Shown in pieces: positions 13,815-32,660 of a stretch of DNA of 32,810 nt; the stretch's first letter is position 1, and every line of letters starts with the position of its first letter. Both the position numbers and the translations under genes were made by a program. This DNA is from Eubacteriales bacterium (GTDB lineage Bacteria; Bacillota; Clostridia; Tissierellales; GPF-1). The notes beneath the pieces were generated by a model. The model worked only from the letters and a program-made list of their open reading frames with translations. It was not told the origin of the DNA and ran no database searches. The DNA is taken from positions 83,166 through 115,975 of the forward strand of contig DAOUQF010000007.1 of assembly GCA_030625815.1 (NCBI GenBank), written 5' to 3'.

Positions 13815-14747
13815 ATGAAAAGAATTATTTTGGGCATTCTTATGATCGCCTTACTGCTGACCGGTTGTGCAACTGATCCAGCGGCAGTGCAAAATGAAGG
13901 ACCAAAAACACTTCGGGTGGGATTGATGCCCGATGATGGCATATTGCCGTATCTATATGGAAATCAACAAGGCTTTTTCTCAAATGAAGGCATCGAAGTA
14001 TCCTTTGTAATCTTTATGAGTGCCCTTGATCGCGACGCCGCCTTGCAGGCCGGCGAACTGGATGCCATTTATTCGGATGTAGTTTCATTGGTGTATTATG
14101 CGGAAGCAGGCACACCGCTTGTAGCCGTTAGCAGCACCCAAGCGACTTATGGCATTGCCATTCATGAAGCAGGCACCGATGCCAATGCTTTAGCTGGAAA
14201 ATCTGTGGGCCTGTCTACCAATACCCTTATGGAATATCTGGTTGACAATGCACTTTCCGAAGCGGGTTTAACAGAAGCTTCAATCGAAAAGATTGCAATC
14301 CCGTCGCTGCCCAATCGCTTGGAAAGCTATCGAGCGGGTCAAATTGACGCCATTGCGCTTCCTGAACCTCTTTTAAGCCTCGCGGTATTAAAAGAGGGAA
14401 ACGTGATTGCCACTGCCGAGTCTATCGGCTTGGCTCCTGGAGTCCTTCTGGTTCAATCCGTTTGGATGGAAAACGCGCCTGAAGCCATGGAGGCATTCTT
14501 TGCAGGATATGATCTTGCCGTCGACGGGTTAAATGCAGGTGCGAAAGAAGAAGATTTGTTGGCAATCTACGCGGAAGCCAAGTTTCCGGAACCCGTTCAA
14601 CAAGGTTTTGTCTTACCGACATACCGCCACGCTGAAGCGCCGGCGGAAGAACAGATTCAAAGGGCGATTGATTGGCTGACAGCTCGAGACTTAATCGAAG
14701 GAGAACACAGCTATAAGAGCCTCGTTTCTCCTTTGCTGCAAAAATAA
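13815..14747 (+). CDS. Orphan ABC transporter substrate-binding lipoprotein (COG0715 type)
   Basis: 310 aa with lipoprotein signal ending ILMIALLLTGC (Cys18) and a type II binding-protein fold: LRVGLMPDDGILPYLYGNQQ (N-lobe), ALQAGELDAIYSDVVSLVYY, LAGKSVGLSTNTLMEYLVDN (second lobe), YRAGQIDAIALPEP. AGGGGG precedes the ATG. It belongs to the same broad family as the 4772 protein but is clearly diverged. No permease or ATPase gene is adjacent, and it has its own promoter and terminator. The only ABC permease/ATPase pair in the window without a binding protein is at 31186-32621, making a functional pairing possible (inference). Ligand unknown. Confidence 0.88.
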   Translation: MKRIILGILMIALLLTGCATDPAAVQNEGPKTLRVGLMPDDGILPYLYGNQQGFFSNEGIEVSFVIFMSALDRDAALQAGELDAIYSDVVSLVYYAEAGTPLVAVSSTQATYGIAIHEAGTDANALAGKSVGLSTNTLMEYLVDNALSEAGLTEASIEKIAIPSLPNRLESYRAGQIDAIALPEPLLSLAVLKEGNVIATAESIGLAPGVLLVQSVWMENAPEAMEAFFAGYDLAVDGLNAGAKEEDLLAIYAEAKFPEPVQQGFVLPTYRHAEAPAEEQIQRAIDWLTARDLIEGEHSYKSLVSPLLQK

Positions 14748-16752: not shown

Positions 16753-18048
16753 ATGAGCTATCTTGGTCCCAAAACTATCATTGAAAAGAAAAAACAATTC
16801 CTGCTGCCTTGCTCCTATCATTTTTATCAAGATCCCCCTCAGTTGGTGCGGGGCTCCATGCAATATCTCTATGATCATACAGGCAAGCAATATCTGGATT
16901 GTTTTGCCGGGGTTTCCGTTATGAATTGCGGACACAGCAACCCGGAAATACTGCAAACAACCCTTAAACAGATGGAAACCCTGCAGCATACAACAACGAT
17001 CTATCTGACAGAGCCCATTGTCGCCTTGGGAGAACGCCTAGCCCATTATCTGCCAGGCAATCTGACGCGATCCTTTTTCTGCATGTCGGGTTCGGAAGCA
17101 AATGAAGGAGCGCTGCTGCTGGCAAAAAAAGCAACCGGGAGAATGGGGCTGATCGGATTGGAAGGGGGGCTTTCCGGCCGAACCCATCTGACCATGAGCC
17201 TAACGGGAATTCCCATGTGGCGCACCATGGACGATCCCTCGCCCAATACCTATTTGGCTAAAGGATACGGCAAGGAACCGGAAGAAACGGCTTCAGCAGC
17301 CATGGAACGCTCCCTGGCCAGCATCCGATCGATTTTAGAGGCACACCCGAATGGGATCGCCGCTGTGATCTGTGAACCCATCCAAGGCAATGGCGGCATT
17401 CAAGTCCCTCACGTCCGCTACTTCAAGCGATTGAAAGCCATGCTCCAGGAATTCGGAGCGCTTTTGATCATCGATGAAGTGCAGACCGGATACGGGCGCA
17501 CCGGAAAGAACTTTGCCATCGAACATTTCGATGTTGTTCCCGATATTTTGACATCGGCCAAGGCCCTAGGTAATGGCGTGCCCATTGCAGCCTTCTCCAC
17601 AACGGATGAAATCGCCGCAGGATTCACAAGCCCCTCCGCATCCACCTTGGGCGGGAACCCCGTTTCAGCCGCCAACTCCCTGGCTGTGCTGGATTATTTG
17701 GAATCTCATCAATTAAAAGAGCGCGCTTCCAATCTTGGGAACCTATTGCTGGAGAAACTGACGCAATTACAAAAAAAACATTCCTTGATTTCCGATGTGC
17801 GCGGCATCGGCCTAATGGCCGGCATGGAAATCCGCACCCCTGACGGGTTGCCGGCACCGGAAGCAGTCGATCGCATCCTGGAACGCATGAAAGATGCCGG
17901 TTTCCTGATCGGCAAAAACGGCATCGACCGAAATGTCCTGGCATTCCAGCCGCCGTTGGTGGTCACAAAAATCAATCTGCTGCACATGATGGAATCCTTA
18001 GAAACAGCACTGCAGAAAGAATATGCAAGTTATTCCCCTTGCAAATAA
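16753..18048 (+). CDS. Class III pyridoxal-phosphate aminotransferase
   Basis: 431 aa from ATG 16753 with AAGGAG upstream; it starts one base after the U32 stop. Fold-type I class III signatures are visible: YLDCFAGVSVMNCGHSNPEI, FFCMSGSEANEGALLLAKKA (PLP phosphate region), CEPIQGNGGIQVP, LLIIDEVQTGYGRTGK (Asp binding the pyridine nitrogen), and the Schiff-base lysine in LTSAKALGNGVPIAAF. This group includes AGXT2-like alanine-glyoxylate, GABA, ornithine and beta-alanine transaminases. I cannot assign the donor amine. A strong terminator closes the two-gene operon. Confidence 0.92.
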   Translation: MSYLGPKTIIEKKKQFLLPCSYHFYQDPPQLVRGSMQYLYDHTGKQYLDCFAGVSVMNCGHSNPEILQTTLKQMETLQHTTTIYLTEPIVALGERLAHYLPGNLTRSFFCMSGSEANEGALLLAKKATGRMGLIGLEGGLSGRTHLTMSLTGIPMWRTMDDPSPNTYLAKGYGKEPEETASAAMERSLASIRSILEAHPNGIAAVICEPIQGNGGIQVPHVRYFKRLKAMLQEFGALLIIDEVQTGYGRTGKNFAIEHFDVVPDILTSAKALGNGVPIAAFSTTDEIAAGFTSPSASTLGGNPVSAANSLAVLDYLESHQLKERASNLGNLLLEKLTQLQKKHSLISDVRGIGLMAGMEIRTPDGLPAPEAVDRILERMKDAGFLIGKNGIDRNVLAFQPPLVVTKINLLHMMESLETALQKEYASYSPCK

Positions 18049-20496: not shown

Positions 20497-22026
20497 ATGA
20501 AAAAACTCAACAAACATTTAAGTATCATTCTTGTACTCAGCCTCATTTTACTCGCCTTTGCGACACCTGGTTTTGCCGCAGGGCAAGAAACAAACATTAC
20601 CATCTTCCACTTCAATGACACCCACGGCCGGGTTGTCGAAGGAAAGTATGATGGCATGGGATTCCCGCGCCTCGCTGATGTAATCGAGCAAACCCGTGCA
20701 GATGGCGGCAATGTGCTTGTCCTGGATGCCGGTGATTCCTATCACGGAAAACCCGTTGTCAACTTGAACCAAGGAAAATTGGTTCTTGATATCCTGAACG
20801 AAATGGGTCTTGACGCTCAAGCGCCAGGCAACCACGACTTCAACTACGGGTACGAGCGCTTACTTGAATTAGAAGAGATGGCGAACTTTCCAATCATGGC
20901 CGCCAATGTCAAAATGGATGGCAAAAGCCTGCTGAAGCAGGACTATACCATCAAAGAATTCGATGGCGTAAAGGTCGGGATCTTCGGTCTTTCCACTCCA
21001 GAAACTACGTACAAAACCAATCCATTAAACGTGATTGGGGTTGATTTTGAAGCCCCTGCCAAAGCGGCAGCCGAAATGGTAACAGCGTTGAAAGCAGAAG
21101 GCTGTGACGTCATTATTGCCTTGGGCCACTTGGGCAACGATGACGAAACAAAAACGGAAGAAACAAGCAAATACGTATTGGAAAATGTAGATGGCATTGA
21201 TATCTTTGTTGATGGCCATTCCCATGAAACCCTACCAGACGGCGAAATAATCAATGGCGCCCTTTTGGTGCAGGCTGGCTCCTATGACAAGAATGTCGGC
21301 CGTATCGACCTTACCGTGAAAGACGGTGTTATTACCGCAACCGCAACCTTGATTGAAAAGGGTGCGGAAGGCTATGAAGACAATGCAGAAATCCAGGCAT
21401 TGATCGATGCAACCGTTGAAGAAAATCGCATGATTACCGATGTTAAAATTGGCTACACCATCTACGAACTCAATGGTGAAAGAGACTTTGTCCGCACCGG
21501 CGAAACTCGAATGGCCAACTTGATCACAACTGCCATTGGCATCCGAACCGGATCCGATGCAGTCATCACCAATGGCGGAGGAATTCGCGCAACCATTGGA
21601 CAAGGCACTATGACGAAGGGACATATCCTAGAAGTCTTGCCATTCGGCAACTACGTAGTCGTTAAAAACATGAGCGGCCAGGCAATCTTGGATGCATTGA
21701 ACCACGGAATCAGCGCATATCCAGCAACAAGCGGTGCGTTCCCACAAGTTTACGGCATCAAGTATACCTTGAACTACAGCGAAACAGCTGACAATTACGT
21801 TTCCAATGTCATGATCAAAGGACAAGCATTGAGTCCGATGAAAATGTACACCGTAGCTACCAATGACTTTCTGGCAGCCGGTGGAGACGGATACACCACC
21901 TTTGGCGATGCAACAACTGCAGCGGAATACGGCGACATGGCCGATGTTATAATCGCGCATATCGAAAAATACAGTATCGCCGGCGCAGCACCTCGCCGCT
22001 GGATTACCAATCAAGAAATCAAATAG
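20497..22026 (+). CDS. Secreted 5'-nucleotidase/UDP-sugar hydrolase family protein
   Basis: 509 aa. Sec signal peptide MKKLNKHLSIILVLSLILLA ending ATPGFA, then a metallophosphoesterase domain (ITIFHFNDTHGR, LDAGDSYHG, PGNHDFNYGYERL, FVDGHSHETLPDG; about residues 33-290) and a 5'-nucleotidase C-terminal domain (about 310-480, with ITNGGGIRATIGQGT and ATNDFLAAGGDGYTTF). It dephosphorylates extracellular nucleotides so nucleosides and phosphate can be taken up. No cell-wall anchor or S-layer domain follows, so it is probably released or loosely held. AAGGAGGAG precedes the ATG; a bidirectional terminator follows. Confidence 0.93.
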   Translation: MKKLNKHLSIILVLSLILLAFATPGFAAGQETNITIFHFNDTHGRVVEGKYDGMGFPRLADVIEQTRADGGNVLVLDAGDSYHGKPVVNLNQGKLVLDILNEMGLDAQAPGNHDFNYGYERLLELEEMANFPIMAANVKMDGKSLLKQDYTIKEFDGVKVGIFGLSTPETTYKTNPLNVIGVDFEAPAKAAAEMVTALKAEGCDVIIALGHLGNDDETKTEETSKYVLENVDGIDIFVDGHSHETLPDGEIINGALLVQAGSYDKNVGRIDLTVKDGVITATATLIEKGAEGYEDNAEIQALIDATVEENRMITDVKIGYTIYELNGERDFVRTGETRMANLITTAIGIRTGSDAVITNGGGIRATIGQGTMTKGHILEVLPFGNYVVVKNMSGQAILDALNHGISAYPATSGAFPQVYGIKYTLNYSETADNYVSNVMIKGQALSPMKMYTVATNDFLAAGGDGYTTFGDATTAAEYGDMADVIIAHIEKYSIAGAAPRRWITNQEIK

Positions 22027-22032
22027 AACAGC

Positions 22033-22063
22033 AAAATGGCTCCCGATTGGGAGCCATTTTTTC
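22033..22063. terminator. Bidirectional terminator
   Basis: AAAATGGCTCCC pairs with GGGAGCCATTTT around GATT, with T and A tracts on each side; serves the 5'-nucleotidase and the convergent apbE-type gene. Confidence 0.85.
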
Positions 22064-23138
22064 ATTCCGCATATACAAGTTCTTCCATCACTTCATTTGT
22101 CGATACATAGCGATCCAACAATTCCTGCGAACTGAAGATCATCCGATCATCCTTGGTAACAAAGATCGCGTCGATCTCAGGCAAGGCACGAATCAAGCGT
22201 ATCCCCTCATCCAGCCCCATTAAAAAACAGGTTGTCGACAAGGCGTCGCCGTCCGACGATTTCGGACTGATAATCGAAACGGAACGCAATTCGTTTTCAG
22301 CAGGAAACCCTGTAAAGGGATCTAGAATATGGTGATATCTCTTTCCATCCACTTCAAAATATCGCTCATAATCTCCAGAGGTTACAATCGACTCGTCCTG
22401 CAAGGAGACGACTCCCAAATACTCGCCCCGCAGGCTGTCCGGATCCTGAACGCCAATTCGAAAATCCGATCCGTCCGGCTTGCCGCCGATCAGAAGGACA
22501 TTCCCGCCAAGATTGATAATCCCGCTGGTTACACCGGCATCCATCAATTGCTCTTTCACCTCGTCAGCGATATAGCCCTTGGCGATGGCACCGAGATTTG
22601 CAATCATTTTTTCATCCTGGAGAAAGACCGTTTTGTTTTCCCCATCCACAATCAATTTCCGATAATCGATCAGCGGCTGAACTGCATCCAATTCATCTTC
22701 CGTCGCCACATGGCCCTCCGGAGGATCAATGCCCCACAAGTCGATCAGCGGACCTGCCGTGGGATCAAATCGTCCCTGAGAAAATTCCGCGTATTGAAGC
22801 GCAGCCTCCATCACTTCGATCGTCTCCGCCTCGACTGAAACCGCAGCCTTCCCCGCTTGGTCTCTCACCTTCGCCAAATCGCTCTCCTCAAGGTGAACAC
22901 TCAGGATTTTTTCCAATTGATCAATCCGCGAAAAAGAATCCGTTATCAAGCCGGCATCCTCTTCCCCGTATAATTTTATCGTTACGATGGTATCGAGCTG
23001 AAAAGCATGATCCTCGATATATGCCGGTTTCGAGGGCGTTTCCGCTGTTGGAACAGGTTCTGCTTGCGCGCATGCTGTAAACCCAATTGCTGCCCACAAA
23101 ATCAATCCCATTGCCTGAATCATTCGTTTTTGTCTCAT
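22062..23138 (-). CDS. fmnB: FAD:protein FMN transferase, lipoprotein (ApbE/FmnB type)
   Basis: 358 aa from ATG 23138, chosen because AAGGGG is eight bases upstream, while ATG 23144 abuts it. Signal ending AAIGFTAC (lipidated Cys23). ApbE motifs: QLDTIVTIKLYG, FDPTAGPLIDLWG, LGAIAKGYIADEV, INLGGNVLLIGGKPDG, YHHILDPFTGFPAENE, and SSDGDALSTTCFLMG (Mg2+-binding Asp and Thr). The enzyme cleaves FAD and attaches FMN covalently to Ser/Thr of extracytoplasmic FMN-binding domains. Its obvious substrate is the adjacent two-domain FMN-binding lipoprotein. In Listeria the same pair is FmnB and PplA of the FLEET locus. It has its own promoter. Confidence 0.95.
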   Translation of the reverse strand: MRQKRMIQAMGLILWAAIGFTACAQAEPVPTAETPSKPAYIEDHAFQLDTIVTIKLYGEEDAGLITDSFSRIDQLEKILSVHLEESDLAKVRDQAGKAAVSVEAETIEVMEAALQYAEFSQGRFDPTAGPLIDLWGIDPPEGHVATEDELDAVQPLIDYRKLIVDGENKTVFLQDEKMIANLGAIAKGYIADEVKEQLMDAGVTSGIINLGGNVLLIGGKPDGSDFRIGVQDPDSLRGEYLGVVSLQDESIVTSGDYERYFEVDGKRYHHILDPFTGFPAENELRSVSIISPKSSDGDALSTTCFLMGLDEGIRLIRALPEIDAIFVTKDDRMIFSSQELLDRYVSTNEVMEELVYAE

Positions 23139-23163
23139 CCTCATCCCCCCTTAATCTGTCCTC

Positions 23164-23192
23164 ATTGTAACGAAGGTTCCGATTCTTTGCAA
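23164..23192 (-). promoter_or_regulatory. Promoter of the fmnB-type gene
   Basis: Minus strand: TTGCAA (23187-23192), 17 bp, TACAAT (23164-23169). It directly follows the terminator of the pplA-like gene. Confidence 0.6.
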
Positions 23193-23223
23193 TAAAAAAA
23201 GCTGGACCCAGCCCAGCTTTTTC
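23193..23223 (-). terminator. Terminator of the pplA-like gene
   Basis: On the minus strand AAAGCTGG pairs with CCAGCTTT around a 7-nt loop, followed by a T-run. Confidence 0.8.
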
Positions 23224-23230
23224 AATCTAG

Positions 23231-24088
23231 TTACTTCAATGCTTCGTTGAACAATTCAACAAATTGAGTCAAGTGAATCGATGCTCCGGCAACCGCGTCA
23301 GTTTTGCCTTCCGCGTCAAGTGTCACATCAAATCCTTGGTTCGCAAGAATAAAGGCTTCCACCGCTTCCGCTTGCGCATACCATTCCGCTTGCGCGCCGC
23401 CGTATGCAACCATGCCATAGTCGTCGCCCAATTCTTTTTTCGATGTGTCTTTGCCTTCTTCATTCAATGATTTCGCGTTCAAGTTTGCCCCAACGATGGT
23501 TCCATTGACTACTTGGAACTGACCAAGGTAAGTGAATCCTTGATCGTCTTCAGCAAGCTCCGCATAATAATATCCATCTGTATAGTCGCCTTTGGCAATC
23601 GGTTCGTTCGCCAATGCTTCATCTGCCAAGCCAAAAAACTCTGTTACATGAATCGAAACGCCGGTAATTGCATCCGTATGACCTTCATCATCCGTATAGA
23701 CAACTTCCGTTGTTTGGTTATCCAACAGATATTGCTCCACTGCCTCCGCCTGCACATCCCATTCTGACTGCGCAGCGCCGTAAGCAACCATGCCATATCC
23801 GCCATTGGCAGAAAGGGTCTTCTTGTCGTCGCCGCCGCGAACGTTCGTGCCGTTCCAGTCAACATTAACAACTTTCCCGCCAGCAACCTCTAGGGTTACA
23901 TTAGTTTTCCAACCGCTTCCAGCAAATCCAGCCTCTTGTGCATAATATACACCATCTGCAACATCAAAGCTTGCCGTTTCTTCTACTGGTTCCGTTGGCG
24001 CTTCTGGTTCAGCTGCTTCCGCTGGCGCACAGCCTGCAAACGCAGCAACCGTCATTAAAACAATCACTAACAATGTTAATTTTTTCAT
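23231..24088 (-). CDS. pplA: Lipoprotein with two FMN-binding domains (PplA-like electron carrier)
   Basis: 285 aa from ATG 24088 (GGAGGAG upstream). Lipoprotein signal MKKLTLLVIVLMTVAAFAGC (Cys20), an acidic/proline spacer to about residue 40, then two homologous FMN-binding domains (about 41-158 and 167-285), each starting DGxYYA, with a GMVAYG-AQ-EW core and ending in the flavinylation motif. The motifs are DAITGVS (acceptor position Ser145) and DAVAGAS (Ser270); the usual acceptor is Thr in D-x-x-S/T-G-A-T, so both copies carry Ser. In Listeria PplA the flavinylated domains sit outside the membrane and pass electrons to extracellular acceptors. Located next to fmnB and divergent from ndh2. 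Confidence 0.93.
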   Translation of the reverse strand: MKKLTLLVIVLMTVAAFAGCAPAEAAEPEAPTEPVEETASFDVADGVYYAQEAGFAGSGWKTNVTLEVAGGKVVNVDWNGTNVRGGDDKKTLSANGGYGMVAYGAAQSEWDVQAEAVEQYLLDNQTTEVVYTDDEGHTDAITGVSIHVTEFFGLADEALANEPIAKGDYTDGYYYAELAEDDQGFTYLGQFQVVNGTIVGANLNAKSLNEEGKDTSKKELGDDYGMVAYGGAQAEWYAQAEAVEAFILANQGFDVTLDAEGKTDAVAGASIHLTQFVELFNEALK

Positions 24089-24128
24089 AAACTCTCCTCC
24101 TACACTTTGTTTATTATTGGACAAACTT

Positions 24129-24157
24129 ATTCTAGCCTGAGAAAGTTTACCTGTCAA
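24129..24157 (-). promoter_or_regulatory. Strong promoter of the pplA-like gene
   Basis: Minus strand: TTGACA (24152-24157), 17 bp, TAGAAT (24129-24134). Confidence 0.8.
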
Positions 24158-24244
24158 ACTATTTTTATTTCTGGTTTTGATTAAGTTTCACGGGTACAAT
24201 CGTTTTCAGAGAGTTTTTTCATGAAAATACTTACTTTTGCTGAA

Positions 24245-24256
24245 TTTTGTACAAAA
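24245..24256. promoter_or_regulatory. 12-bp palindrome in the pplA-ndh2 divergent region
   Basis: TTTTGTACAAAA, a perfect palindrome. No regulator can be assigned. The stretch 24089-24513 contains no gene; it holds promoters for both directions, this palindrome and a Rex-like site. Confidence 0.3.
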
Positions 24257-24373
24257 AGTTACAAATTCTTCATCCTTATCAAGACCAAATCCTTTTTTAT
24301 TACCCTTATGAACAAATCGAAAACAGCACATTCGAATCTGATAAACTGGCTTTAGTTTGCAACCAAATTTTCC

Positions 24374-24402
24374 TTTGCATTCTGAAAAACATAGGCTATA
24401 AT
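24374..24402 (+). promoter_or_regulatory. Candidate upstream promoter of the ndh2-quinone operon
   Basis: TTTGCA (24374-24379), 17 bp, TATAAT (24397-24402); about 105 nt of leader before ATG 24514. Confidence 0.6.
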
Positions 24403-24434
24403 AAAGACGCCAACAGTTTCACAAGGAAACTTTT

Positions 24435-24464
24435 TTGCACTATTTATTTGTCCATTTATACAAT
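24435..24464 (+). promoter_or_regulatory. Candidate downstream promoter of the ndh2-quinone operon
   Basis: TTGCAC (24435-24440), 18 bp, TACAAT (24459-24464). Its transcription start would fall just before the Rex-like site. Confidence 0.45.
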
Positions 24465-24477
24465 TCTACACAATTTA

Positions 24478-24495
24478 TTGTTAATTAATTACCAA
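24478..24495 (+). promoter_or_regulatory. Rex-type operator (redox-sensing repressor) before ndh2
   Basis: TTGTTAATTAATTACCAA matches the clostridial Rex consensus TTGTTAANNNNTTAACAA at 13 of 14 fixed positions. It lies between the candidate promoters and the ribosome binding site (24502-24509), where a repressor would block transcription. Rex senses NADH/NAD+, and NADH dehydrogenase genes are established Rex targets in Firmicutes. Confidence 0.6.
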
Positions 24496-24513
24496 CACAC
24501 TGGGAGGGGAACT

Positions 24514-26376
24514 ATGAATCCGACGAAAATTGTAATTCTTGGCGGTGGATACGCCGGAATTAAAGCGGGAAAAGTCCTGCATAAAGCATTTCGGAAAGAG
24601 TCGAATGTAGAGATCACTTTAATTGATCGCCATCGATTCCATACACTAATGACTGAACTCCACGAGGTTGCCGGCCATCGAACAGAACCCGATGCCATCA
24701 CCGTTGATCTGAAGAAGGTCTTCCGGGGTCGAATGGTGAACGTTCGATTTGACAACATCGCATCCATTGACTTTGAAGGTCAATGCCTAAAGGGAGAACA
24801 AAACGAATACCCTTACGATTATTTGGTTGTTGCAACAGGCAACGAATCAAACTTCTTTGGGGTTGAAGGTGCCGAAGAAAATTCGCATACCCTATGGTCT
24901 TATGAAGATGCCGTTGATCTTCGCAAGCATGTAGAAAACATGTATGACCTTGCATCTCGCACCGAGGATCCTGAAAAACGAAAAGAACTCTTGACCTTTG
25001 CAGTCTGCGGCGGCGGATTTACCGGCGTTGAAATGGCAGGCGAGCTGGGAGAAGCTAAAGAGCATCTTTCCCGCAAGTACGACATCGACTCAAGCGAAGT
25101 GAAAATCTACAATATAGAAGCGATGGGACGCATTCTCAACATGCTGGAAAAAGACAGCCAGGTTGAAAAAGTGCAACAGCGATATCAAAAACTCGGAATC
25201 GAGCTTCTTACCAACGCGCCAATCATTGAAGTGGAAGAGAATGCCTTTACCCTGAAAAGCGGCGAAGTCGTTCCGTGCCGAACTTTGATCTGGGCTGCCG
25301 GAATCAAAAACAACTCCTTTGCATCAAAACTGGGTTTAACCGTCGGTCGCGGCGGCCGTATCCTAGTTAATGATTATATGCAAACTGCTGAATACAAAAA
25401 CGTATTTGCTGTCGGTGACAATGCAGCATATGAAGATCAAGACGGTCCAATGCCTCAGATCGTTCAAGCGGCAGAGGCTTCAGGCCACACCGCAGCGAAC
25501 AACATCATTCAAATGATTCAAGGCGGCGAACTCCATACCCATTCACAAAAATATGACGGCTTTATGGTTTCAGTGGGATCGCGTTACGCGGTATCCGATA
25601 CTCGTGGAATTCGATTCAATGGTTGGATGGCGATGTTGGTCAAGCACTTGGTCAACTTCCTATACCTCTTCAGCGTTGGCGGCGTTCGACAGCTTTGGAA
25701 TTACTGGCGTCACGAATTCTTCCGCGTGAAGCATCGCCGCTCTTTCGTTGGCGGCCATTTTGCAACGGCTTCACCGAACTTCTGGTTGGTTCCATTGCGA
25801 ATTTATCTGGGCATCATGTGGTTGATCGAGGGCTACAACAAAATTGGTGAAGGATGGCTTAAAGAAATGAAGATGGGTTGGTTGTTGACCCCTTCTCCTG
25901 TTGCTGCGGATGCAACTGCAGCCGCGACAGAAGCTGCTGAAGCAGTCGTTGAAACGGTAACTGCCGCCAGCGGAGCTGCAGAAGCAGTTGTGGAAACAGC
26001 ATCTGCCTACGGTGAGCCATTATTGAAAAATGTACCTGGAATCATGCAATGGTTCCTTGACAATATCTATGCGCAAGCGCCTATTTTGTTCCAAACCATG
26101 ATCGTCTTAACGGAAATGGCCGTGGGCCTCTTGTTGGTTGTCGGATTGTTTACTTTCCTATCATCCGCGATCAGCGTTGTGTTAACCATCGCTTTTACCC
26201 TTACGACCATGACGGACGTCAGCATCCTTTGGTTCTTCTTCGGTGGAATCGCCTTGATCGGCGGCGCCGGCAGCACCTTCGGACTGGACTATTATGTTCT
26301 TCCTCGACTGCGACTCTGGTGGAGTAAAACGCATATCGGCGGCAAGGCATATCTATACTGGGACGAACTTGAATAG
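24514..26376 (+). CDS. ndh2: Type II NADH dehydrogenase with C-terminal membrane domain (Ndh2 of FLEET)
   Basis: 620 aa from ATG 24514 (GGGAGGGG upstream); an in-frame extension to 24247 runs through the promoter region. FAD motif KIVILGGGYAGIKAG (residues 5-19), NAD motif FAVCGGGFTGVEMAGELGE (162-180), FAVGDNAAYED (298-308). After residue 375 it carries hydrophobic segments, beginning WMAMLVKHLVNFLYLFSVGG, then a DoxX-like membrane part (about 425-600) split by an Ala/Glu-rich linker (464-499) in which AAEAVVET occurs twice, 14 residues apart. Ordinary Ndh-2 proteins end near residue 400-450; the membrane extension is typical of Listeria Ndh2, which feeds electrons from NADH into a dedicated demethylmenaquinone pool. 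First gene of the plus-strand operon. Confidence 0.94.
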   Translation: MNPTKIVILGGGYAGIKAGKVLHKAFRKESNVEITLIDRHRFHTLMTELHEVAGHRTEPDAITVDLKKVFRGRMVNVRFDNIASIDFEGQCLKGEQNEYPYDYLVVATGNESNFFGVEGAEENSHTLWSYEDAVDLRKHVENMYDLASRTEDPEKRKELLTFAVCGGGFTGVEMAGELGEAKEHLSRKYDIDSSEVKIYNIEAMGRILNMLEKDSQVEKVQQRYQKLGIELLTNAPIIEVEENAFTLKSGEVVPCRTLIWAAGIKNNSFASKLGLTVGRGGRILVNDYMQTAEYKNVFAVGDNAAYEDQDGPMPQIVQAAEASGHTAANNIIQMIQGGELHTHSQKYDGFMVSVGSRYAVSDTRGIRFNGWMAMLVKHLVNFLYLFSVGGVRQLWNYWRHEFFRVKHRRSFVGGHFATASPNFWLVPLRIYLGIMWLIEGYNKIGEGWLKEMKMGWLLTPSPVAADATAAATEAAEAVVETVTAASGAAEAVVETASAYGEPLLKNVPGIMQWFLDNIYAQAPILFQTMIVLTEMAVGLLLVVGLFTFLSSAISVVLTIAFTLTTMTDVSILWFFFGGIALIGGAGSTFGLDYYVLPRLRLWWSKTHIGGKAYLYWDELE

Positions 26377-26386
26377 AAAGCGGTTG

Positions 26387-26419
26387 AAAATCCTTTCGCA
26401 ATCTGCGAAGGGATTTTTC
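26387..26419 (+). terminator. Hairpin with T-run between ndh2 and eetA (possible partial terminator)
   Basis: AAAATCC-T-TTCGCA (26387-26400) pairs with TGCGAA-G-GGATTTT (one wobble pair) around a 3-nt loop and ends in five T. It could lower expression of the downstream genes relative to ndh2. Confidence 0.65.
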
Positions 26420-26445
26420 GTGCCTATTCAGAAAAGGAGAGTACT

Positions 26446-26802
26446 ATGAAGAAAAATGATCTTATCCTTATCCTCATCGTCGCGGCAATCGCGGCCGTTG
26501 CCTTGATCTGGATGCAATCAGCAAAGGACCCGGAAGCTGATCGTTGGGTTGTCATCGAATCATACGGGGAATTGCTTGAGGTAATTCCATTAACCGAATC
26601 AACGGAACGGGAGATTCGAATCGGTGACGACGCCGTCTATAACCTTGTGATCATTTCACAAGGAGTGGTGAACATGATAGAATCGGATTGTCCTGACCAG
26701 ATCTGTGTGGAGACAAAATCGGCAAGTGAAGTCGGCGATATGATCGTCTGTCTCCCGCATCAAGTGATTATTTATATCACCGATCAACCTATCGAGGAGT
26801 AA
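26446..26802 (+). CDS. eetA: NusG domain II-containing membrane protein (EetA-like)
   Basis: 118 aa with one N-terminal transmembrane helix (LILILIVAAIAAVALIWM, residues 6-23) and an extracytoplasmic NusG-II-type beta domain. The family cysteines are present: SDCPDQICVET (Cys82, Cys87) and IVCLPHQVII (Cys102). EetA is required for flavin-based extracellular electron transfer in Listeria and is thought to help move electrons from quinol to surface flavoprotein; the mechanism is not established. AAAGGAGAG precedes the ATG. It is three bases ahead of eetB. Confidence 0.88.
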   Translation: MKKNDLILILIVAAIAAVALIWMQSAKDPEADRWVVIESYGELLEVIPLTESTEREIRIGDDAVYNLVIISQGVVNMIESDCPDQICVETKSASEVGDMIVCLPHQVIIYITDQPIEE

Positions 26803-26805
26803 ACC

Positions 26806-27321
26806 ATGAAATCAAACACAAGAAAGCTTGTCTTTTTATCCCTTCTTGTTGCCCAAGCAATGGTCTTAAGTTGGCTTGAATCTATGATCCCCTTTACACC
26901 TGGAATTCCAGGCGCAAAGTTGGGACTTGCAAATATTGTCACCCTGATCGCACTTTCCACCCTGGACTTTAAGAGCAGTTTCACCATTGTTGTGATGCGC
27001 ACAACTTTAACCTCCTTCCTTTTTGGAACGGTTTCTTCTCTGCTCTATTCCTTGTCCGGTGGATTGCTCAGCTTGGTTGTAATGGCTCTCGTGCTGAAAT
27101 TTCTGCCTAAGAGCTTCAGCTTGATGGCAGTCAGCATCATCGGCGCCATCACCCATAACCTGGGACAATTGCTCATGGCAGCCTTGGTCATTGAGAACGT
27201 GAATATTTTGTATTATCTGCCGTTCTTGATGTTGCTTGCCATTCCAACCGGTCTTTTTGTTGGAATCGTAACCCGCTATCTTCTGCCTTATCTCAAACGA
27301 TTTGGCTTTCAGTTTCAATAA
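26806..27321 (+). CDS. eetB: Gx transporter family membrane protein (EetB-like)
   Basis: 171 aa, five or six transmembrane segments. It shows the family's N-terminal pattern LSWLESMIPFTPGIPGAKLG followed by LANIVTLIAL, and FLFGTVSSLLYSLSGGLLS. These proteins are often annotated as heptaprenyl diphosphate synthase component I but resemble ECF-transporter S components; in Listeria the homologue EetB belongs to the FLEET electron path with EetA. Spacing of 3 nt to eetA and 16 nt to the prenyl synthase gene indicates one operon. Confidence 0.9.
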   Translation: MKSNTRKLVFLSLLVAQAMVLSWLESMIPFTPGIPGAKLGLANIVTLIALSTLDFKSSFTIVVMRTTLTSFLFGTVSSLLYSLSGGLLSLVVMALVLKFLPKSFSLMAVSIIGAITHNLGQLLMAALVIENVNILYYLPFLMLLAIPTGLFVGIVTRYLLPYLKRFGFQFQ

Positions 27322-27337
27322 ACCAAAGGAGAACCAC

Positions 27338-28306
27338 ATGCAAAATTATTGGGAGCAATTTCCCTCTATCAAATATGAGCTTCAGCGGGTACATGACTTG
27401 ATGCTCCAAGAGACAACGGATGCCGAACCCTTTATTTCCCGACCCTTGATTGAACTGATCGAAACGGGCGGAAAAAAAATGCGTCCGGCTTTTGTTCTAA
27501 TCGCCGGAAATTATGGCGATCCGAATCCAAAACGAATTCGAGCTGTCGCAGCATCTGTGGAATTGCTTCATCTTTCCACTTTGATCCATGACGATATTAT
27601 TGATCAATCCAAGCTGCGCCGCGGAATTGAAGCCGTCCCATCCAAATATGGAACCGATGTTGCCGTTTATTTAGGCGATTATCTCTTTGCCAAGACCTTT
27701 CTGATGATGAGTCGTTATCAAAAAGAAGATTCAAATACCGAAATCGCCAAAGCGATCTTTAAGATCTGCCGAGGAGAACTCAAACAATATCGATTTCGTC
27801 ATGATACCGACCTCTCGGTTTCGCAATATTTGCGAGTGATCAGCGGGAAAACCGCCGCGCTTTTTGCAGTAAGTCTCTACGCAGGCGCTATTGAGGGAGA
27901 ACTCTCTTCGCGAAAAGCCCATCAGCTGGCCCTTTCCGGGTTGCGCGCAGGCATGGCCTTTCAAATCATCGACGATTGTCTGGATTATACCAGCAAAGAC
28001 CAAACCCTTTCGAAAAGCGCGCAAAACGATATCAAGCAGGGGTTTATGACCCTGCCGATCATCTATGCTTTGCAAGCGGATTCAACGGGCGAACTGCGAA
28101 AGCGGCTCAAGGAGTCTTCTCTCAACAAAGACGATCTCGCTTGGATTCAAAATCAAGTCATCGCATTGGGCGGCGTCGATAAGGCACGGTCCCTTGCCAA
28201 AAAATATACGAAAAAAGCATACGAGGCATTGAATCGCACCCCGGATTGCGAAAGTCGCGCAATCCTTCATACGGTTTATCAAGCCCTGTTGGAACGCCGA
28301 TACTAG
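27338..28306 (+). CDS. dmkB: Polyprenyl diphosphate synthase (DmkB-like)
   Basis: 322 aa from ATG 27338 (AAAGGAG upstream). Trans-prenyltransferase motifs: first Asp-rich motif HDDIID (Asp85, Asp86, Asp89), second IIDDCLDY (Asp212, Asp213, Asp216), plus GGKKMRP near residue 44-50. Small residues Ser80 and Thr81 before the first motif suggest a long (C30-C40) product; chain length is inference. It makes the isoprenoid tail for the quinone assembled by the next genes, like DmkB in the Listeria FLEET locus. Confidence 0.93.
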   Translation: MQNYWEQFPSIKYELQRVHDLMLQETTDAEPFISRPLIELIETGGKKMRPAFVLIAGNYGDPNPKRIRAVAASVELLHLSTLIHDDIIDQSKLRRGIEAVPSKYGTDVAVYLGDYLFAKTFLMMSRYQKEDSNTEIAKAIFKICRGELKQYRFRHDTDLSVSQYLRVISGKTAALFAVSLYAGAIEGELSSRKAHQLALSGLRAGMAFQIIDDCLDYTSKDQTLSKSAQNDIKQGFMTLPIIYALQADSTGELRKRLKESSLNKDDLAWIQNQVIALGGVDKARSLAKKYTKKAYEALNRTPDCESRAILHTVYQALLERRY

Positions 28307-28316
28307 GAGGCATTTT

Positions 28317-29762
28317 ATGGCTTATAAAGATCTGCAAGATTTTATCAAAGAATTAGAAAAGATAGGCGAGCTGAAACGAATCAAGACCCCCGTTTCCGCG
28401 AACCTTGAAATTACAGAAATCACCGATCGAATCTCCAAGCAAAACGGTCCCGCCCTTCTTTTTGAAAATGTGGAAGGCTCAGATTACCCGGTATTGATGA
28501 ACGCCTTCGGCTCAGAAAAGCGTATGGCGATGTCCCTCGGAGTCAATCACCTGGACGAGATTGCCGATCGCATCACGGACTATCTGGATATCAAGCAATA
28601 TATGAGCTTCTTGGGTGCGGTGAAATCACTGCCGAAACTGGCACCCCTTACGGCTGTGATTCCACGCAAAGTCAAGGTGGCGGAATGTCAAGAAGTGGTT
28701 GAGGATGCGAATCTCGATGAATTGCCCATTCTAACCTGCTGGCCGCAGGATGGCGGTCCCTATATGACTTTGCCTTTGGTTATCACCAAGGATCCGGAAA
28801 CCGGTCAACAAAATATGGGGATGTATCGTTTGCAAAAATACGATGCCAAAACCACCGGCATGCACTGGCATCTGCATAAGGATGGCAAAATGATTTATGA
28901 AAAACATCGGGAAATGGGCATTCAACGAATGCCGGTCTCCGTTGCTTTCGGTTGCGATCCTGCAACAACCTATGCGGCAACGGCTCCGTTGCCAAAAATG
29001 ATTGACGAAATGCTCTTTTCCGGTTTCCTTCGAAAGAAACCCTTACGCATTGTCAAATCCGTTACCAATGACATCTACGTACCCGCCAATGCGGAATTCG
29101 TTTTGGAAGGCTATGTCGATCTCGATGAGAAACGACTTGAGGGTCCCTTCGGCGACCATACGGGCTATTATTCCCTGGCGGATGAGTATCCGGTTTTCCA
29201 TGTGGAAAAGGTCACGCGAAGACGAAACCCGGTATATCCGGCAACCATCGTTGGAAAACCGCCGATGGAAGACTGCTATATGGCAAAAGCCACGGAGCGA
29301 ATCTTCTTGCCGTTGATGCGCCTCTTCGTTCCGGAGATCGTTGATATGAACCTTCCTTTGGAAGGGGTGTTTCATAATTGCTGCATCGTTTCCATCGAAA
29401 AAAAATATCCCAAGCACGCCCATAAAATTATGCAAGCCCTATGGGGGCTTGGCCAGATGATGTATACCAAGATGATTATCGTGGTGGATCACACCGTTGA
29501 TGTACAGGACGTCTCCACGGTGATGTGGAAGGTATTCAACAATATCGATCCGAGACGCGATCTTGTCATTACCGACGGTCCCCTTGACGCCTTGGATCAT
29601 TCTTCTCCAACGGCATTCCACGGCAGTCGATTGGGCATTGACGCCACGAAAAAAACCGTTAGCGAAGGCCATCCGCGAGAATGGCCGGACGATATCGAAA
29701 TGGATGAGGATATCATGGAACAGGTCACAAAGAGATGGGCAGAATATGGGCTTGATCAATAA
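28317..29762 (+). CDS. UbiD family prenylated-FMN decarboxylase (MqnL-like candidate)
   Basis: 481 aa, usual UbiD length. Conserved prFMN and metal-site motifs are visible: QNMGMYRLQ (Asn166, Arg171), HWHLHKDG (about 183-190) and the catalytic RLEGPFGDHTGYY (Glu275, Asp280), the E-x-x-x-x-D/E arrangement of the family. The enzyme uses prenylated FMN made by UbiX, encoded two genes later, to decarboxylate an aromatic acid. With a UbiA prenyltransferase and a prenyl synthase as neighbours, the likely substrate is a prenylated dihydroxynaphthoate. AGGAGG precedes ATG; 10 nt follow dmkB and it overlaps ubiA by 17 nt. Confidence 0.93.
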   Translation: MAYKDLQDFIKELEKIGELKRIKTPVSANLEITEITDRISKQNGPALLFENVEGSDYPVLMNAFGSEKRMAMSLGVNHLDEIADRITDYLDIKQYMSFLGAVKSLPKLAPLTAVIPRKVKVAECQEVVEDANLDELPILTCWPQDGGPYMTLPLVITKDPETGQQNMGMYRLQKYDAKTTGMHWHLHKDGKMIYEKHREMGIQRMPVSVAFGCDPATTYAATAPLPKMIDEMLFSGFLRKKPLRIVKSVTNDIYVPANAEFVLEGYVDLDEKRLEGPFGDHTGYYSLADEYPVFHVEKVTRRRNPVYPATIVGKPPMEDCYMAKATERIFLPLMRLFVPEIVDMNLPLEGVFHNCCIVSIEKKYPKHAHKIMQALWGLGQMMYTKMIIVVDHTVDVQDVSTVMWKVFNNIDPRRDLVITDGPLDALDHSSPTAFHGSRLGIDATKKTVSEGHPREWPDDIEMDEDIMEQVTKRWAEYGLDQ

Positions 29763-30618
29763 GGTCCGTCAATTTGGCGAATTGGTGATGTTCTCGCACA
29801 CCCTTTTCTCCCTGCCCTTTGCGGCAGTATCCATGATTTGGGCTGCAGAGGGACTTCCCTCTGCCCGCGTTGTCTTTTGGATTCTCGTCGCCTTATTTGC
29901 CGGCAGAAATGCGGCAAACGCCATCAATAGAGTCATTGATGCCGATTACGACAAGCAGAATCCACGAACGGCCGGCCGCCATATCCCGCAGGGATCGGTG
30001 CGAAAATCAGAAGCTGTCGGTTTGACGACAGTCCTTTTGGCGATCTTTGTTTTCGCGGCCTATCAGCTGAATTTTCTTTGCCTTGTCTTATCGCCCATTG
30101 CCATCGCCCTCTTTCTTTTGTATTCCTACACCAAAAGGTGGACTTGGGCCTGCCACCTCATCCTCGGCGCCATTTGCGCCGGCGCGCCCATAGGCGCCTG
30201 GATCGCGGTAACGGGCAAACTCGCCCTTCCCCCTTTGGTTTTAGCCGCGGGAGTCACCTTCTGGATTGCAGGCTTTGACACCCTCTACGGCACGCAAGAT
30301 ATCGATTTTGACAGAGAAGTCGGGCTCCATTCCATTCCGGAACGTTTCGGACTGAAAAATGCCCTCTTGATCGCAAAGGGCTTTCATGTTTTGGCTTGGG
30401 GATTTTTCTTCCTCGCCGGAGCCTTGGGCGGAATCGGCTGGCTCTTTTCAGTCGGCATGGTCATCATCGCCTTTCTTCTCAGCGTCGAACATCGAATCGT
30501 GGAACCGGCGAACCATGGCATCATGAATTGGGCGAGCTACCATATCAATCAAATTGTCAGCATCCTCTACTTTGCCGTTGCATTGCTGGATGCTTGGATG
30601 ATCGGGAGGATCGGATGA
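29746..30618 (+). CDS. UbiA family prenyltransferase (MqnP/DmkA-role candidate)
   Basis: 290 aa, eight or nine transmembrane helices, from ATG 29746 within the end of ubiD (17-nt overlap). Two Asp-rich motifs: NRVIDADYD (Asn61, Asp65, Asp69) and DTLYGTQDIDFD (Asp178, Asp185, Asp189). The sequence NAANAINRVIDADYDKQNPR followed by TAGR is typical of the 4-hydroxybenzoate/MqnP type rather than MenA, which lacks a separate decarboxylase need. It attaches the polyprenyl tail to the aromatic acid at the membrane. Its stop overlaps the UbiX start (ATGA). Confidence 0.92.
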   Translation: MGLINKVRQFGELVMFSHTLFSLPFAAVSMIWAAEGLPSARVVFWILVALFAGRNAANAINRVIDADYDKQNPRTAGRHIPQGSVRKSEAVGLTTVLLAIFVFAAYQLNFLCLVLSPIAIALFLLYSYTKRWTWACHLILGAICAGAPIGAWIAVTGKLALPPLVLAAGVTFWIAGFDTLYGTQDIDFDREVGLHSIPERFGLKNALLIAKGFHVLAWGFFFLAGALGGIGWLFSVGMVIIAFLLSVEHRIVEPANHGIMNWASYHINQIVSILYFAVALLDAWMIGRIG

Positions 30619-31184
30619 AACCATTCATCGTTGGAATCACCGGCGCCTCAGGCAGTCCCTATGCCTGGCGCTTGCTGCAAAAATTGAATGAACGAAAACT
30701 TGAGACTTATGTGGTTGCCACGAAAACAGGCGCATTGGTCTTTGAACACGAGCTGGGCTTCTCCCTGGAAGCGGGCATTGCCCGCCTTAAGGAAGCCAAA
30801 TTCCATATCGAAACTGTAACCTCTTTTTTCTCACCCATCGCTAGCGGATCGCGCCGATTCTCCGGGATGATCGTCTGTCCCTGCTCCATGGGGACCGCGG
30901 GGCGAATCGCCGCCGGCACCAGCGACAACCTCTTGATTCGCGCGGCCGATGTCTGCCTGAAGGAGAAATTCCCCTTGCTTCTCTTAACCCGGGAAACCCC
31001 TTTACACGCAATTCATTTGGAGAATCTTCTAAAACTGTCAAAAACAGGAGCAACCATTATGCCCATCAGTCCTTCCTTTTATCATCATCCTGCAACCATT
31101 GATGAATTATTGGATCAGATGATGGGACGAATCTTTGATCATTTGGGGCTGGAGCACAGCTTTCATGCCCGCTGGGAGGAATAA
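30615..31184 (+). CDS. ubiX: UbiX family flavin prenyltransferase
   Basis: 189 aa from ATG 30615 with GGGAGGA upstream. GITGASGSPYAWRLL near the N-terminus binds FMN; CPCSMGTAGRIAAGTSDNLLIRAADV and LLLLTRETPLHAIHLENLL are conserved family segments. It prenylates FMN from dimethylallyl phosphate to make the UbiD cofactor. The genetic neighbourhood with ubiD confirms the role. One base separates it from the ABC ATPase gene, whose ribosome binding site is inside the ubiX 3' end. Confidence 0.94.
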   Translation: MKPFIVGITGASGSPYAWRLLQKLNERKLETYVVATKTGALVFEHELGFSLEAGIARLKEAKFHIETVTSFFSPIASGSRRFSGMIVCPCSMGTAGRIAAGTSDNLLIRAADVCLKEKFPLLLLTRETPLHAIHLENLLKLSKTGATIMPISPSFYHHPATIDELLDQMMGRIFDHLGLEHSFHARWEE

Positions 31185-31185
31185 G

Positions 31186-31896
31186 ATGCTGGATGTTCAA
31201 AATCTATCAATCTCTTTCTCCGATGGCGCGATTCCCTTTTCTAACCTCTCCTTCTCTCTGAAGGAACATGAAGTATTAACCGTCATTGGCGCCTCCGGCT
31301 TGGGAAAAACCACCCTGCTTAAGACTCTGGGGGGAATTCATCCCCTGAAAACCGGCACCATTTCATTTAACCGTGAAGAATTGTCCGTGAATCGCCATCG
31401 GATTGGATACGTCCCGCAAGGCTACGGTCTCTATCCTTGGCATTCCGTAAAAAAGAATATCGAAATTGGCAGAAGAATTAGAAAGATACCTTCCGATCCC
31501 GAACTCTTTCAGGAGATTGTGGACGGCTTCAATCTGAATTCTCTGCTGGAACGATCGCCGCGGCGACTCTCCGGAGGCGAACAGCAACGTGTTGCCCTGG
31601 CAAGGGCTTTCTATCTTTTGCCCGACCTCTTCCTTCTGGATGAACCCTTTTCCGCCTTGGACGAGATCACAAAAGAAACTGCCTATCGGCTCTTCGACCA
31701 GGTATGGTCCAAGACAAAACCCACCACCTTGCTGGTCACCCACAGTCTGGAGGAAGCCGTCCGATTTGGCGATCAAATCCTCGTGATGCAAGCTGGAAGC
31801 TGTCAACAGCTTGCCAACCCGAAGGTGCCGGAGAAAAAAGAAGCGCTCCTTGTTGAACTGCGAAATCTTTTAATCAATCCGGAGGTGAACGCATGA
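31186..31896 (+). CDS. ABC transporter ATP-binding protein attached to the quinone operon
   Basis: 236 aa from ATG 31186 (GGGAGGA at 31174-31180, inside ubiX). Walker A GASGLGKTT, Q-loop PQGYGLYPW, signature LSGGEQQRVALAR, Walker B LFLLDEPF, H-loop LLVTHS. It is of the SsuB/TauB class. Gap to ubiX is one base and it overlaps the permease gene by four (ATGA), so it is co-translated with quinone genes. No binding protein gene is adjacent. The substrate is unknown; a quinone head-group precursor or flavin is plausible from context. Confidence 0.93.
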   Translation: MLDVQNLSISFSDGAIPFSNLSFSLKEHEVLTVIGASGLGKTTLLKTLGGIHPLKTGTISFNREELSVNRHRIGYVPQGYGLYPWHSVKKNIEIGRRIRKIPSDPELFQEIVDGFNLNSLLERSPRRLSGGEQQRVALARAFYLLPDLFLLDEPFSALDEITKETAYRLFDQVWSKTKPTTLLVTHSLEEAVRFGDQILVMQAGSCQQLANPKVPEKKEALLVELRNLLINPEVNA

Positions 31897-32621
31897 AACG
31901 CCATCCTTGGATTTATGCCATCCTGGTCGTACTCGGCATTTGGTGGCTGGGCTACGCCCTTCTGCAAGCGCCGATTCTTCCCTCACCCCTTCGGGTTTTA
32001 GCCTTTATCTTTTCCAAGAAGGGGCTTGTGATGGGGACTCATTTGCTCGCCAGCATCCGCCGCTTGTTCCTTGGAGTAACCAGCGGACTTTTAATCGGCT
32101 ATCCCTTGGGTTTGATCCTGGGTACCTATCCGAGAACCCATCACGTTCTTTCGCCCATTATCGCCCTGCTGTATCCGATTCCCAAAACAACCTTTCTTCC
32201 CCTGTTTATGTTGGCCTTTGGCCTGGGGGATGCACCGAAAATCGGATTGATCCTGCTGATCATCGTCTTCCCCATCGTGATTATGACGCGAGATCAAGTC
32301 ATGCAATTGGAACCGGAACTCTTTACTCCCTTGATCGCCTTGGGAGCCAGCGAATCGCAGATCTTTCGGGAGCTTGTGATTCCCGCAACGATTCCGCAAC
32401 TGTTGTCGACCACCCGAATTTCAACAGCCACCGCCCTTTCCGTTCTCTTTTTAGCGGAAGCCTTCGGCACTCGATCCGGCATTGGATTTTTTATTATGGA
32501 TGCCATGCAGCGAATCAATTATGTGCAGATGTTTGCCGGTATTTTGATCCTGGGCGGCTTGGGGGTTCTTTGCTTTCAAGGCATTGACTGGATCGAAAAA
32601 CAATGGAATCGAAAATTGTGA
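31893..32621 (+). CDS. ABC transporter permease attached to the quinone operon
   Basis: 242 aa, about six transmembrane segments, SsuC/TauC class. The ATPase-contact loop is visible as ELFTPLIALGASESQIFREL followed by VIPATIPQLL, and the class-typical SIRRLFLGVTSGLLIGYPLG near the N-terminus. It overlaps the ATPase gene (ATGA) and is the last gene before a terminator. It lacks an adjacent substrate-binding protein; the orphan lipoprotein at 13815 is of the matching class. Confidence 0.92.
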   Translation: MKRHPWIYAILVVLGIWWLGYALLQAPILPSPLRVLAFIFSKKGLVMGTHLLASIRRLFLGVTSGLLIGYPLGLILGTYPRTHHVLSPIIALLYPIPKTTFLPLFMLAFGLGDAPKIGLILLIIVFPIVIMTRDQVMQLEPELFTPLIALGASESQIFRELVIPATIPQLLSTTRISTATALSVLFLAEAFGTRSGIGFFIMDAMQRINYVQMFAGILILGGLGVLCFQGIDWIEKQWNRKL

Positions 32622-32631
32622 GAGATTTATC

Positions 32632-32660
32632 AAAACGGTAACCCATGTTACCGTTTTTTA
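32632..32660 (+). terminator. Terminator of the ndh2-quinone-ABC operon
   Basis: AAAACGGTAAC (32632-32642) pairs with GTTACCGTTTT (32647-32657) around CCAT, followed by T's. It isolates hcp from the operon. Confidence 0.85.

Follow-up and report, generated by a model that had tools for sequence, protein, structure and literature searches.

A flavin-based electron-export operon that ends in a candidate importer of menaquinone precursors

Where does a bacterium that would pass electrons from NADH to a flavin protein at its surface obtain the quinone between the two, when its operon encodes only the last steps of quinone synthesis? The question is raised by a locus in a Eubacteriales genome (GCA_030625815.1; 3.2 Mb in 58 contigs, 98.5% complete; G000), in the final 32.8 kb of contig C9 (DAOUQF010000007.1), a stretch of 32,810 nucleotides (nt) that was analysed whole and is called the window below (L, G and f are our handles for loci, genomes and families). 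Eleven genes assigned here in an initial annotation to flavin-based electron export are all open frames at the positions claimed, ten of them with Pfam matches over cut-off and the PplA-like protein as the weak one, and the identity of the locus is well supported by its gene content. We hold it to be highly probable that it is an electron-export locus with a terminal menaquinone (mqn) module. The annotation had further suggested that the chain is closed in itself and supplied with quinone by its own genes, and this we cannot uphold, as the operon encodes post-ring steps only and no MqnC, MenD or credible MqnA/MqnD was found in the genome. The more important part of the locus is the ATP-binding cassette (ABC) transporter that the annotation left unexplained, which, to judge from sequence comparison, is probably an importer of dihydroxynaphthoate.

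The quinone module differs from that of Listeria, as had been claimed, terminal futalosine-type enzymes (MqnL, MqnP-like and UbiX) replacing the MenA-type DmkA. On the plus strand mqnL (28317-29762), a UbiD family menaquinone-type decarboxylase with a three-domain UbiD Pfam match, passes TIGR03701 (658 bits, cut-off 495.9), and is followed by an mqnP-like UbiA prenyltransferase gene (29746-30618, plus strand) that passes TIGR01475 (292 bits, cut-off 180.8). The latter protein scores 212-290 bits with the MqnP models, under their cut-offs, and 121 bits with proteobacterial UbiA, and no MenA model is among its 23 matched families at E 1e-3. The third gene (30615-31184, plus strand) encodes a UbiX-type, MqnM-like flavin prenyltransferase (NF004685, 198 bits, cut-off 188; TIGR00421, 197 bits, cut-off 108.9), expected to supply MqnL with its prenylated flavin mononucleotide (prenyl-FMN) cofactor. 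The three correspond to the enzymes called MqnL, MqnP and MqnM in PMC4746308, where they are placed at the end of the route that leads through 1,4-dihydroxy-6-naphthoate and are to turn this compound into demethylmenaquinone.

Genes for the ring itself did not appear in the host genome: MqnC (TIGR03699) had no match at E 1e-3, MenD (TIGR00173) none at E 1e-30, and MqnA/MqnD (PF02621) none at E 1e-10. A single weak PF02621 match (25 bits, or 27.1 with its neighbours; cut-off 26) falls in a lipoprotein-like frame adjoining a permease-like frame, whereas nearly all PF02621 genes found in the phylum score 160-270 bits. The window itself carries, at 4772-7203, a second set of NMT1-type substrate-binding protein, permease and ATPase, the binding protein of which is a 37-bit PF02621 match, over the cut-off; this suggests that weak matches to the family can be binding proteins and not MqnA/MqnD. 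As far as the models used can see, it is very likely that the host makes no ring by either known route. Among 59 genomes with an Ndh2 homologue, PF02621 is absent at E 1e-10 in 57 and MenD exceeds its cut-off in none (G362 has a match below it), and ring auxotrophy may be common among Ndh2-type electron exporters.

The candidate importer consists of an ABC ATPase (31186-31896, plus strand; PF00005, 98.8 bits; Walker A GASGLGKT, signature LSGGE) and a permease (31893-32621, plus strand; PF00528, 67.7 bits). The permease scores 135-204 bits against the permeases of six related loci, and another permease of the window (5781-6548) 25 bits against that of L078. Their predicted partner is an orphan NMT1/THI5-type substrate-binding lipoprotein (hereafter SBP; 13815-14747, plus strand; A1 profile 235.6 bits; lipobox LTGC), the sole member of its family in the host genome at E 1e-20. 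The parts of a NitT/TauT-type importer are all present, namely ATPase, PF00528 permease and NMT1-type binding lipoprotein, the last 16 kb off and a partner that we infer. The SBP lies between mqn genes and the ABC ATPase in ten loci of relatives (L074, L078, L079, L088, L125-L127, L130-L132); the relatives' proteins match PF09084 and PF13379 in the four tested and have a lipobox in most, not all, cases. In the window the SBP gene is followed by genes for a U32-family protein and an aminotransferase. The order is SBP-abcA-abcP-U32-aminotransferase in L123 and SBP-U32 in L122, and L165 (G307) has mqnP-ubiX-U32-aminotransferase-SBP-abcA-abcP on one strand with mqnL 6.3 kb from the SBP. The surroundings of the SBP here resemble these three loci, and the simplest history would be one in which abcA-abcP was transferred, within this genus, to the tail of the ndh2 operon. 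Twelve aligned SBPs share an invariant arginine within the motif IPxRLEM, which could hold the carboxylate; a model of the window SBP predicted from that one sequence had a mean pLDDT (predicted local distance difference test) of 32 and was not used.

The substrate is suggested by the prenyltransferases that keep company with this protein. UbiA-family genes are in view in 14 of 60 SBP-centred loci, which represent 13 of the 28 families. Twelve of these genes lie no more than 220 bp away, and the set comprises eight MqnP and six MenA-like genes; the 60 loci were taken from 110 places, the remainder having been fetched previously or being of lower rank or the same family. None turned up in the control, arbitrary stretches that add up to 380 kb and come from 19 of these genomes (19 of 20 fetched; G045:C24, which overlaps a locus of interest, was excluded). 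The UbiA profile had first included sequences from the tested loci, and when rebuilt from earlier loci only it returned the same 14 against 0. In L164, L166 and L189 the SBP has as its neighbour a MenA that passes its NCBIfam model (TIGR00751, 222-245 bits, cut-off 102), and in L138, L140, L141 and L154 a MenA-like protein under the cut-off. A second SBP clade (starred in our labels) belongs to genomes without MqnL; in G433, G427, G227 and G363 its SBP gene is divergent to that of a MenA-like prenyltransferase under the curated cut-offs, and in G422 and G434 no prenyltransferase lies within flanks of 1.5 kb. In the f48 loci (L078, L079, L132) mqnP is accompanied by a MenA-like gene (65-67 bits) situated beyond ndh2. 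Because the links require 10 changes for mqnP and 7 for menA, scattered over the SBP tree (L078 and L079, with a MenA-like gene in view, being labelled menA-linked although mqnP is closer), they look to have arisen repeatedly and not as one inherited arrangement. MenA is established to act on a dihydroxynaphthoate. A passage of PMC4746308 predicts a dihydroxynaphthoate as substrate of MqnP also, and that both enzymes use one is the main ground on which we name it as the predicted cargo of the importer.

The distribution of the SBP among genomes is consistent with such a role. MqnL exceeds its cut-off in 19 of the 59 Ndh2-homologue genomes, and all 19 have the SBP (E 1e-20), none PF02621 (E 1e-10) and none MenD over cut-off. 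In a phylum sample of 398 genomes chosen without regard to Ndh2 (SBP at E 1e-40, PF02621 at E 1e-20; G341 was added to the 104 MqnL-positive genomes since it exceeds the cut-off when joined with a neighbouring fragment), the SBP is present in 37 of 39 genomes that have MqnL without PF02621, as against 34 of 66 that have both. These 37 span 22 families, and the two exceptions, G108 and G379, are both of family f39. The SBP is found in 21 of 256 genomes with neither MqnL nor PF02621 and in 7 of 18 with PF02621 but no MqnL. Its distance from mqnL is at most 10 kb in 19/37 genomes without PF02621, 9/27 with one such gene and 0/7 with two or more.

Several observations weigh against the importer as we propose it. 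The SBP gene precedes ndh2 by 9.8 kb and is separated from the ABC genes by 16.4 kb, and its product forms a long, unplaced branch in the SBP tree. No UbiA-family gene is in view in 46 of the 60 SBP-centred loci, the UbiA-like gene of L153 is doubtful (18.9 bits with an independently seeded model), and the stretches fetched for second-clade genomes G406, G081 and G275 hold no prenyltransferase. The SBP also occurs in 18 of 40 Ndh2 genomes without MqnL over cut-off and, in the sample of 398, in 9 of the 19 whose MqnL is under the cut-off and in 34 of the 66 that have both MqnL and PF02621. Kinship is corrected for neither in these counts nor in the Fisher p of 1.4e-6 for 37/39 versus 34/66. Some genomes counted as lacking PF02621 are incomplete (e.g. 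G196, 81%; G271, 84%; G360, 89%), and weak matches to that family can be missed, since the 37-bit match of the window (4772-5806, by hmmscan) is absent from the output of the genome-wide search. In family f25 (L202-L204, L188, L191) the SBP and ABC genes are linked to mqnL-mqnP despite a complete-looking mqnE-mqnA-mqnC-mqnZ cluster. Salvage by bacteria that also make the ring would explain f25, yet it is an extra assumption, and some other role might explain it too. That the SBP marks auxotrophs only is an idea ruled out by these f25 clusters. A PF02621 gene between two radical-SAM genes and near an mqnZ-like gene, recognised by position, motif and eye, is seen in 11 of 20 stretches fetched around PF02621 genes (L202-L207, L211-L213, L216, L217); mqnE-, mqnC- and mqnZ-like genes near PF02621 genes were named by eye without a profile, as were the hcp-like frame and the 5'-nucleotidase mentioned below. 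The mqnZ gene is predicted, in a passage of PMC4746308, to replace mqnD.

Taking the importer as the favoured reading, we infer a substrate, a direction of transport, an electron path and a quinone product as follows. The ABC pair (31186-32621) and the lipoprotein (13815-14747) would import ready-made dihydroxynaphthoate, most likely 1,4-dihydroxy-6-naphthoate, supplied by other microbes, the host being an auxotroph for the quinone ring. MqnP would attach to this ring a polyprenyl tail made by the prenyl synthase of the operon, and MqnL, using prenyl-FMN made by UbiX, would remove the carboxylate to give demethylmenaquinone. Electrons would then run from NADH through Ndh2, demethylmenaquinone and EetA to the FMN of PplA, itself flavinylated by FmnB with flavin exported through EetB. 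In its widest form the proposal is that anaerobic Firmicutes take up soluble menaquinone precursors through this ABC family, which would be the importer missing so far and would carry the 6-naphthoate for MqnP-MqnL-UbiX and the 2-naphthoate for MenA, and that the genus relies for its electron export on rings shared between microbes. The linked U32 protein and aminotransferase may in addition alter the quinone or its precursor without oxygen, possibly by hydroxylation or amination of the ring, and give an undescribed naphthoquinone. To this form we give about even chances.

Of the other explanations the one that survives best, unlikely as we consider it, is that these genomes have an undescribed third route to the ring, the SBP-ABC system then transporting some other compound or recovering leaked intermediate. 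The U32-family protein (14826-16751, plus strand; PF01136, 233 bits) and the class III pyridoxal phosphate aminotransferase (16753-18048, plus strand; PF00202, 321 bits), which recur with the SBP-ABC system, could belong to such a route: in six families (f1, f144, f147, f149, f129, f34) a U32 gene, mostly with the aminotransferase, adjoins ndh2, an mqn gene or the gene of the SBP, the U32 protein scores 124 bits with UbiU, under cut-off, and the SBP-ABC genes are linked to mqnL-mqnP even where upstream genes seem present. However, the U32-aminotransferase pair is not in view at many loci with MqnL in genomes without PF02621 (e.g. L074, L078, L088, L170, L197, judged from the loci only), and it occurs also in genomes with two PF02621 genes (G022, G219). 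The loci of G022 and G219 in question (L068, L069) have U32-aminotransferase-mqnP-like beside ndh2-pplA, and each of these genomes has the two PF02621 genes.

It is less probable still that the ABC pair stands here by chance and is a common importer of sulfonate, taurine or the like. The nearest NCBIfam types of permease and SBP are indeed SaoP, TauC, SsuC and SsuA, all under cut-off, and no SBP adjoins the pair in the host genome; yet its two genes overlap by 4 nt, are separated by 1 nt from ubiX and lie ahead of a terminator-like hairpin, and the linkage recurs in many families with the co-occurrence of 37/39 given above. Some riboflavin importers use NMT1-type binding proteins, and a transporter bringing riboflavin or flavin adenine dinucleotide (FAD) for FmnB and PplA, RibXY-like or in the manner of the Listeria flavin-trafficking subunits, would suit a flavin-dependent locus and loci in which fmnB adjoins the SBP-ABC genes (G341, G381, G176). 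We hold this to be quite improbable: in several loci, such as L163, L170, L179, L188, L193, L197, L164 and L189, the SBP-ABC genes stand beside mqnL-mqnP or menA while fmnB, pplA and ndh2 are all out of view, and the flavin system of Listeria is, in the abstract of PMC9973259, of the energy-coupling factor (ECF) type, whereas the permease here is PF00528. The least probable alternative, that UbiD, UbiA and UbiX make a benzoquinone from 4-hydroxybenzoate in the style of ubiquinone, can point to identical enzyme families and to 2idb, a 3-octaprenyl-4-hydroxybenzoate carboxy-lyase, as the closest solved sequence to UbiD, but UbiD passes TIGR03701 and, with PRK10922 (4-hydroxy-3-polyprenylbenzoate decarboxylase; cut-off 788), reaches no more than 417, UbiA scores 290 for MqnP_DT versus the 121 noted for proteobacterial UbiA, and the switching with MenA in other lineages points to a naphthoate.

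How the predicted importer is built into the electron-export locus is seen from the gene order. The genes do lie together, as had been claimed of a single locus, but not as one unit: the minus strand carries pplA (23231-24088) followed by fmnB (22062-23144) as a first unit, which diverges across 425 nt from ndh2, and with ndh2 a second unit, ndh2-eetA-eetB-polyprenyl synthase-ubiD-ubiA-ubiX-ABC ATPase-permease, begins on the plus strand (24514-32621). Gene calls and gaps bear out that this operon runs on through UbiD-UbiA-UbiX and the ABC pair. Its gaps, from ndh2-eetA onwards, are 69, 3, 16, 10, -17, -4, 1 and -4 nt, so that the spacing of at most 44 nt after the start of eetA stands, whereas the junctions described as mostly overlapping do so in three cases of seven. 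Terminator-like hairpins follow fmnB (22033-22060, minus strand; 12-pair stem, T-containing tail) and the permease gene (32632-32657, plus strand; 11-pair stem, T tail), and mark the predicted unit boundaries; they have the longest stems in the terminator scan of the window, although such matches as a class are hardly above chance (17 versus 12.6 expected, standard deviation 3.6). The contig ends 189 nt past the permease gene, and since these last 189 nt contain solely the beginning of a frame that by eye resembles the start of hcp, the ABC genes probably close the operon. Rfam at gathering threshold gave nothing but one tRNA. At the other end a 509-residue secreted protein, 5'-nucleotidase-like by eye (20497-22026), adjoins the end of fmnB, a position kept in the genus.

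Conservation of the arrangement beyond close relatives, which the initial annotation had posed as its test, is found in part. A contig-level genome scan gave one close relative and one short Paenibacillus contig match. In 11 of the 19 genomes in which Ndh2 and MqnL each exceed the cut-off, representing six families, a single stretch of about 20 kb holds an ndh2 homologue together with mqnL and the ABC family, and the exact order ndh2-eetA-eetB-pps-mqnL-mqnP-ubiX-abcA-abcP is confined, among 42 loci compared, to the genus (3 of 3 genomes). Variants of UbiD also occur: a longer type just under the MqnL cut-off is found in 19 of the 398 genomes, and G423 has a second UbiD-family gene, of 612 residues, after mqnL-mqnP (L123, 11971-13809).

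FmnB, a lipoprotein FAD:protein FMN transferase of the ApbE family (22062-23144, minus strand; PF02424, 291 bits; lipobox FTAC), has as best PDB match 7esa, an FAD:protein FMN transferase (245 bits), which we take to be the Listeria FmnB entry. The PplA-like lipoprotein (23231-24088, minus strand) carries two flavinylation-type motifs of the form D-x-x-[TA]-G-x-S, DAITGVS and DAVAGAS, at residues 139 and 264, and matches PDB 2kzx over residues 44-161 (138 bits); its match to NCBIfam PplA is weak (29.7 bits, cut-off 325), and it has no FMN_bind match at E 1e-3. In the genus-mate G398 (L053, 11253-12893) the pplA frame has 547 codons including the stop, against 285 residues in the window, which suggests extra domains. 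Ndh2 is a type II NADH dehydrogenase (24514-26376, plus strand; PF07992, 149 bits) with a membrane C-terminal extension, in which residues 506-606 form a DoxD/DoxX-like region just above cut-off. It is followed by eetA (26446-26802, plus strand; NusG_II, PF07009, 95.6 bits), eetB (26806-27321, plus strand; PF07456, Hpre_diP_synt_I, 158 bits) and a DmkB-like polyprenyl diphosphate synthase gene (27338-28306, plus strand; PF00348, 213 bits; motifs DDIID and DDCLD). EetB, predicted here to be a flavin export subunit of the ECF-S type, is probably not part of the prenyl synthase, since the abstract of PMC9973259 reports it as related to ECF-S subunits and required for flavin export.

Several known systems resemble parts of the locus. 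The Listeria locus for flavin-based export, that of Light et al. 2018, is said to consist of ndh2, pplA, fmnB, fmnA, eetA, eetB, dmkA and dmkB. The two have in common a membrane-extended Ndh2, FmnB, a PplA-like lipoprotein, EetA, EetB and a long-chain prenyl synthase, all together, and differ in that the locus here has MqnP-MqnL-UbiX in place of the MenA-type DmkA, lies in two divergent units, ends its operon in a NitT/TauT-type ABC pair and has no FmnA (ECF-T) among its eleven genes, the rest of the genome not having been searched for it. Since a MenA-type DmkA was looked for in it and not found, we class it as a variant of the Listeria type rather than an ordinary representative. With the futalosine pathway, as set out by Ravcheev and Thiele 2016 (PMC4746308), it shares the terminal enzyme types MqnP, MqnL and MqnM, here in one operon; unlike in the full pathway, MqnA, MqnC and MqnD were not found in the host genome by the searches made, and the module is tied to electron export and an ABC pair. 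Lactiplantibacillus plantarum, which cannot make the quinone ring, exports electrons using 1,4-dihydroxy-2-naphthoate from outside, according to a passage of PMC10746273. It thus has in common with our host electron export in a bacterium without ring synthesis, which is a prediction in the present case; its route of uptake is unknown, whereas we predict a linked ABC importer and find enzymes of the 6-naphthoate type. From the NitT/TauT importers SsuABC and TauABC and from NMT1/THI5 proteins, with which ATPase, permease and SBP share their Pfam families, the present proteins differ in falling under the named NCBIfam cut-offs and in that related SBPs repeatedly adjoin naphthoate prenyltransferases.

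Each of PMC4746308, PMC5738691 and PMC10746273 calls the importers or routes of uptake unknown, the main text of the survey of flavinylated systems in PMC8238504 does not contain the terms 'ABC transporter', 'UbiA' or 'DmkA', and in the part of the open literature that was searched no described importer of a naphthoate or menaquinone precursor was found. If the reading proposed here is true, the SBP-ABC family would be a candidate for an importer that has long been looked for, that of vitamin K precursors shared among microbes, and a specific family with a purifiable binding protein makes the idea of such an importer directly testable. Annotators would gain a means to spot possible naphthoate scavengers, and the electron export of these anaerobes would be tied to the supply of a vitamin K precursor by the community in which they live.

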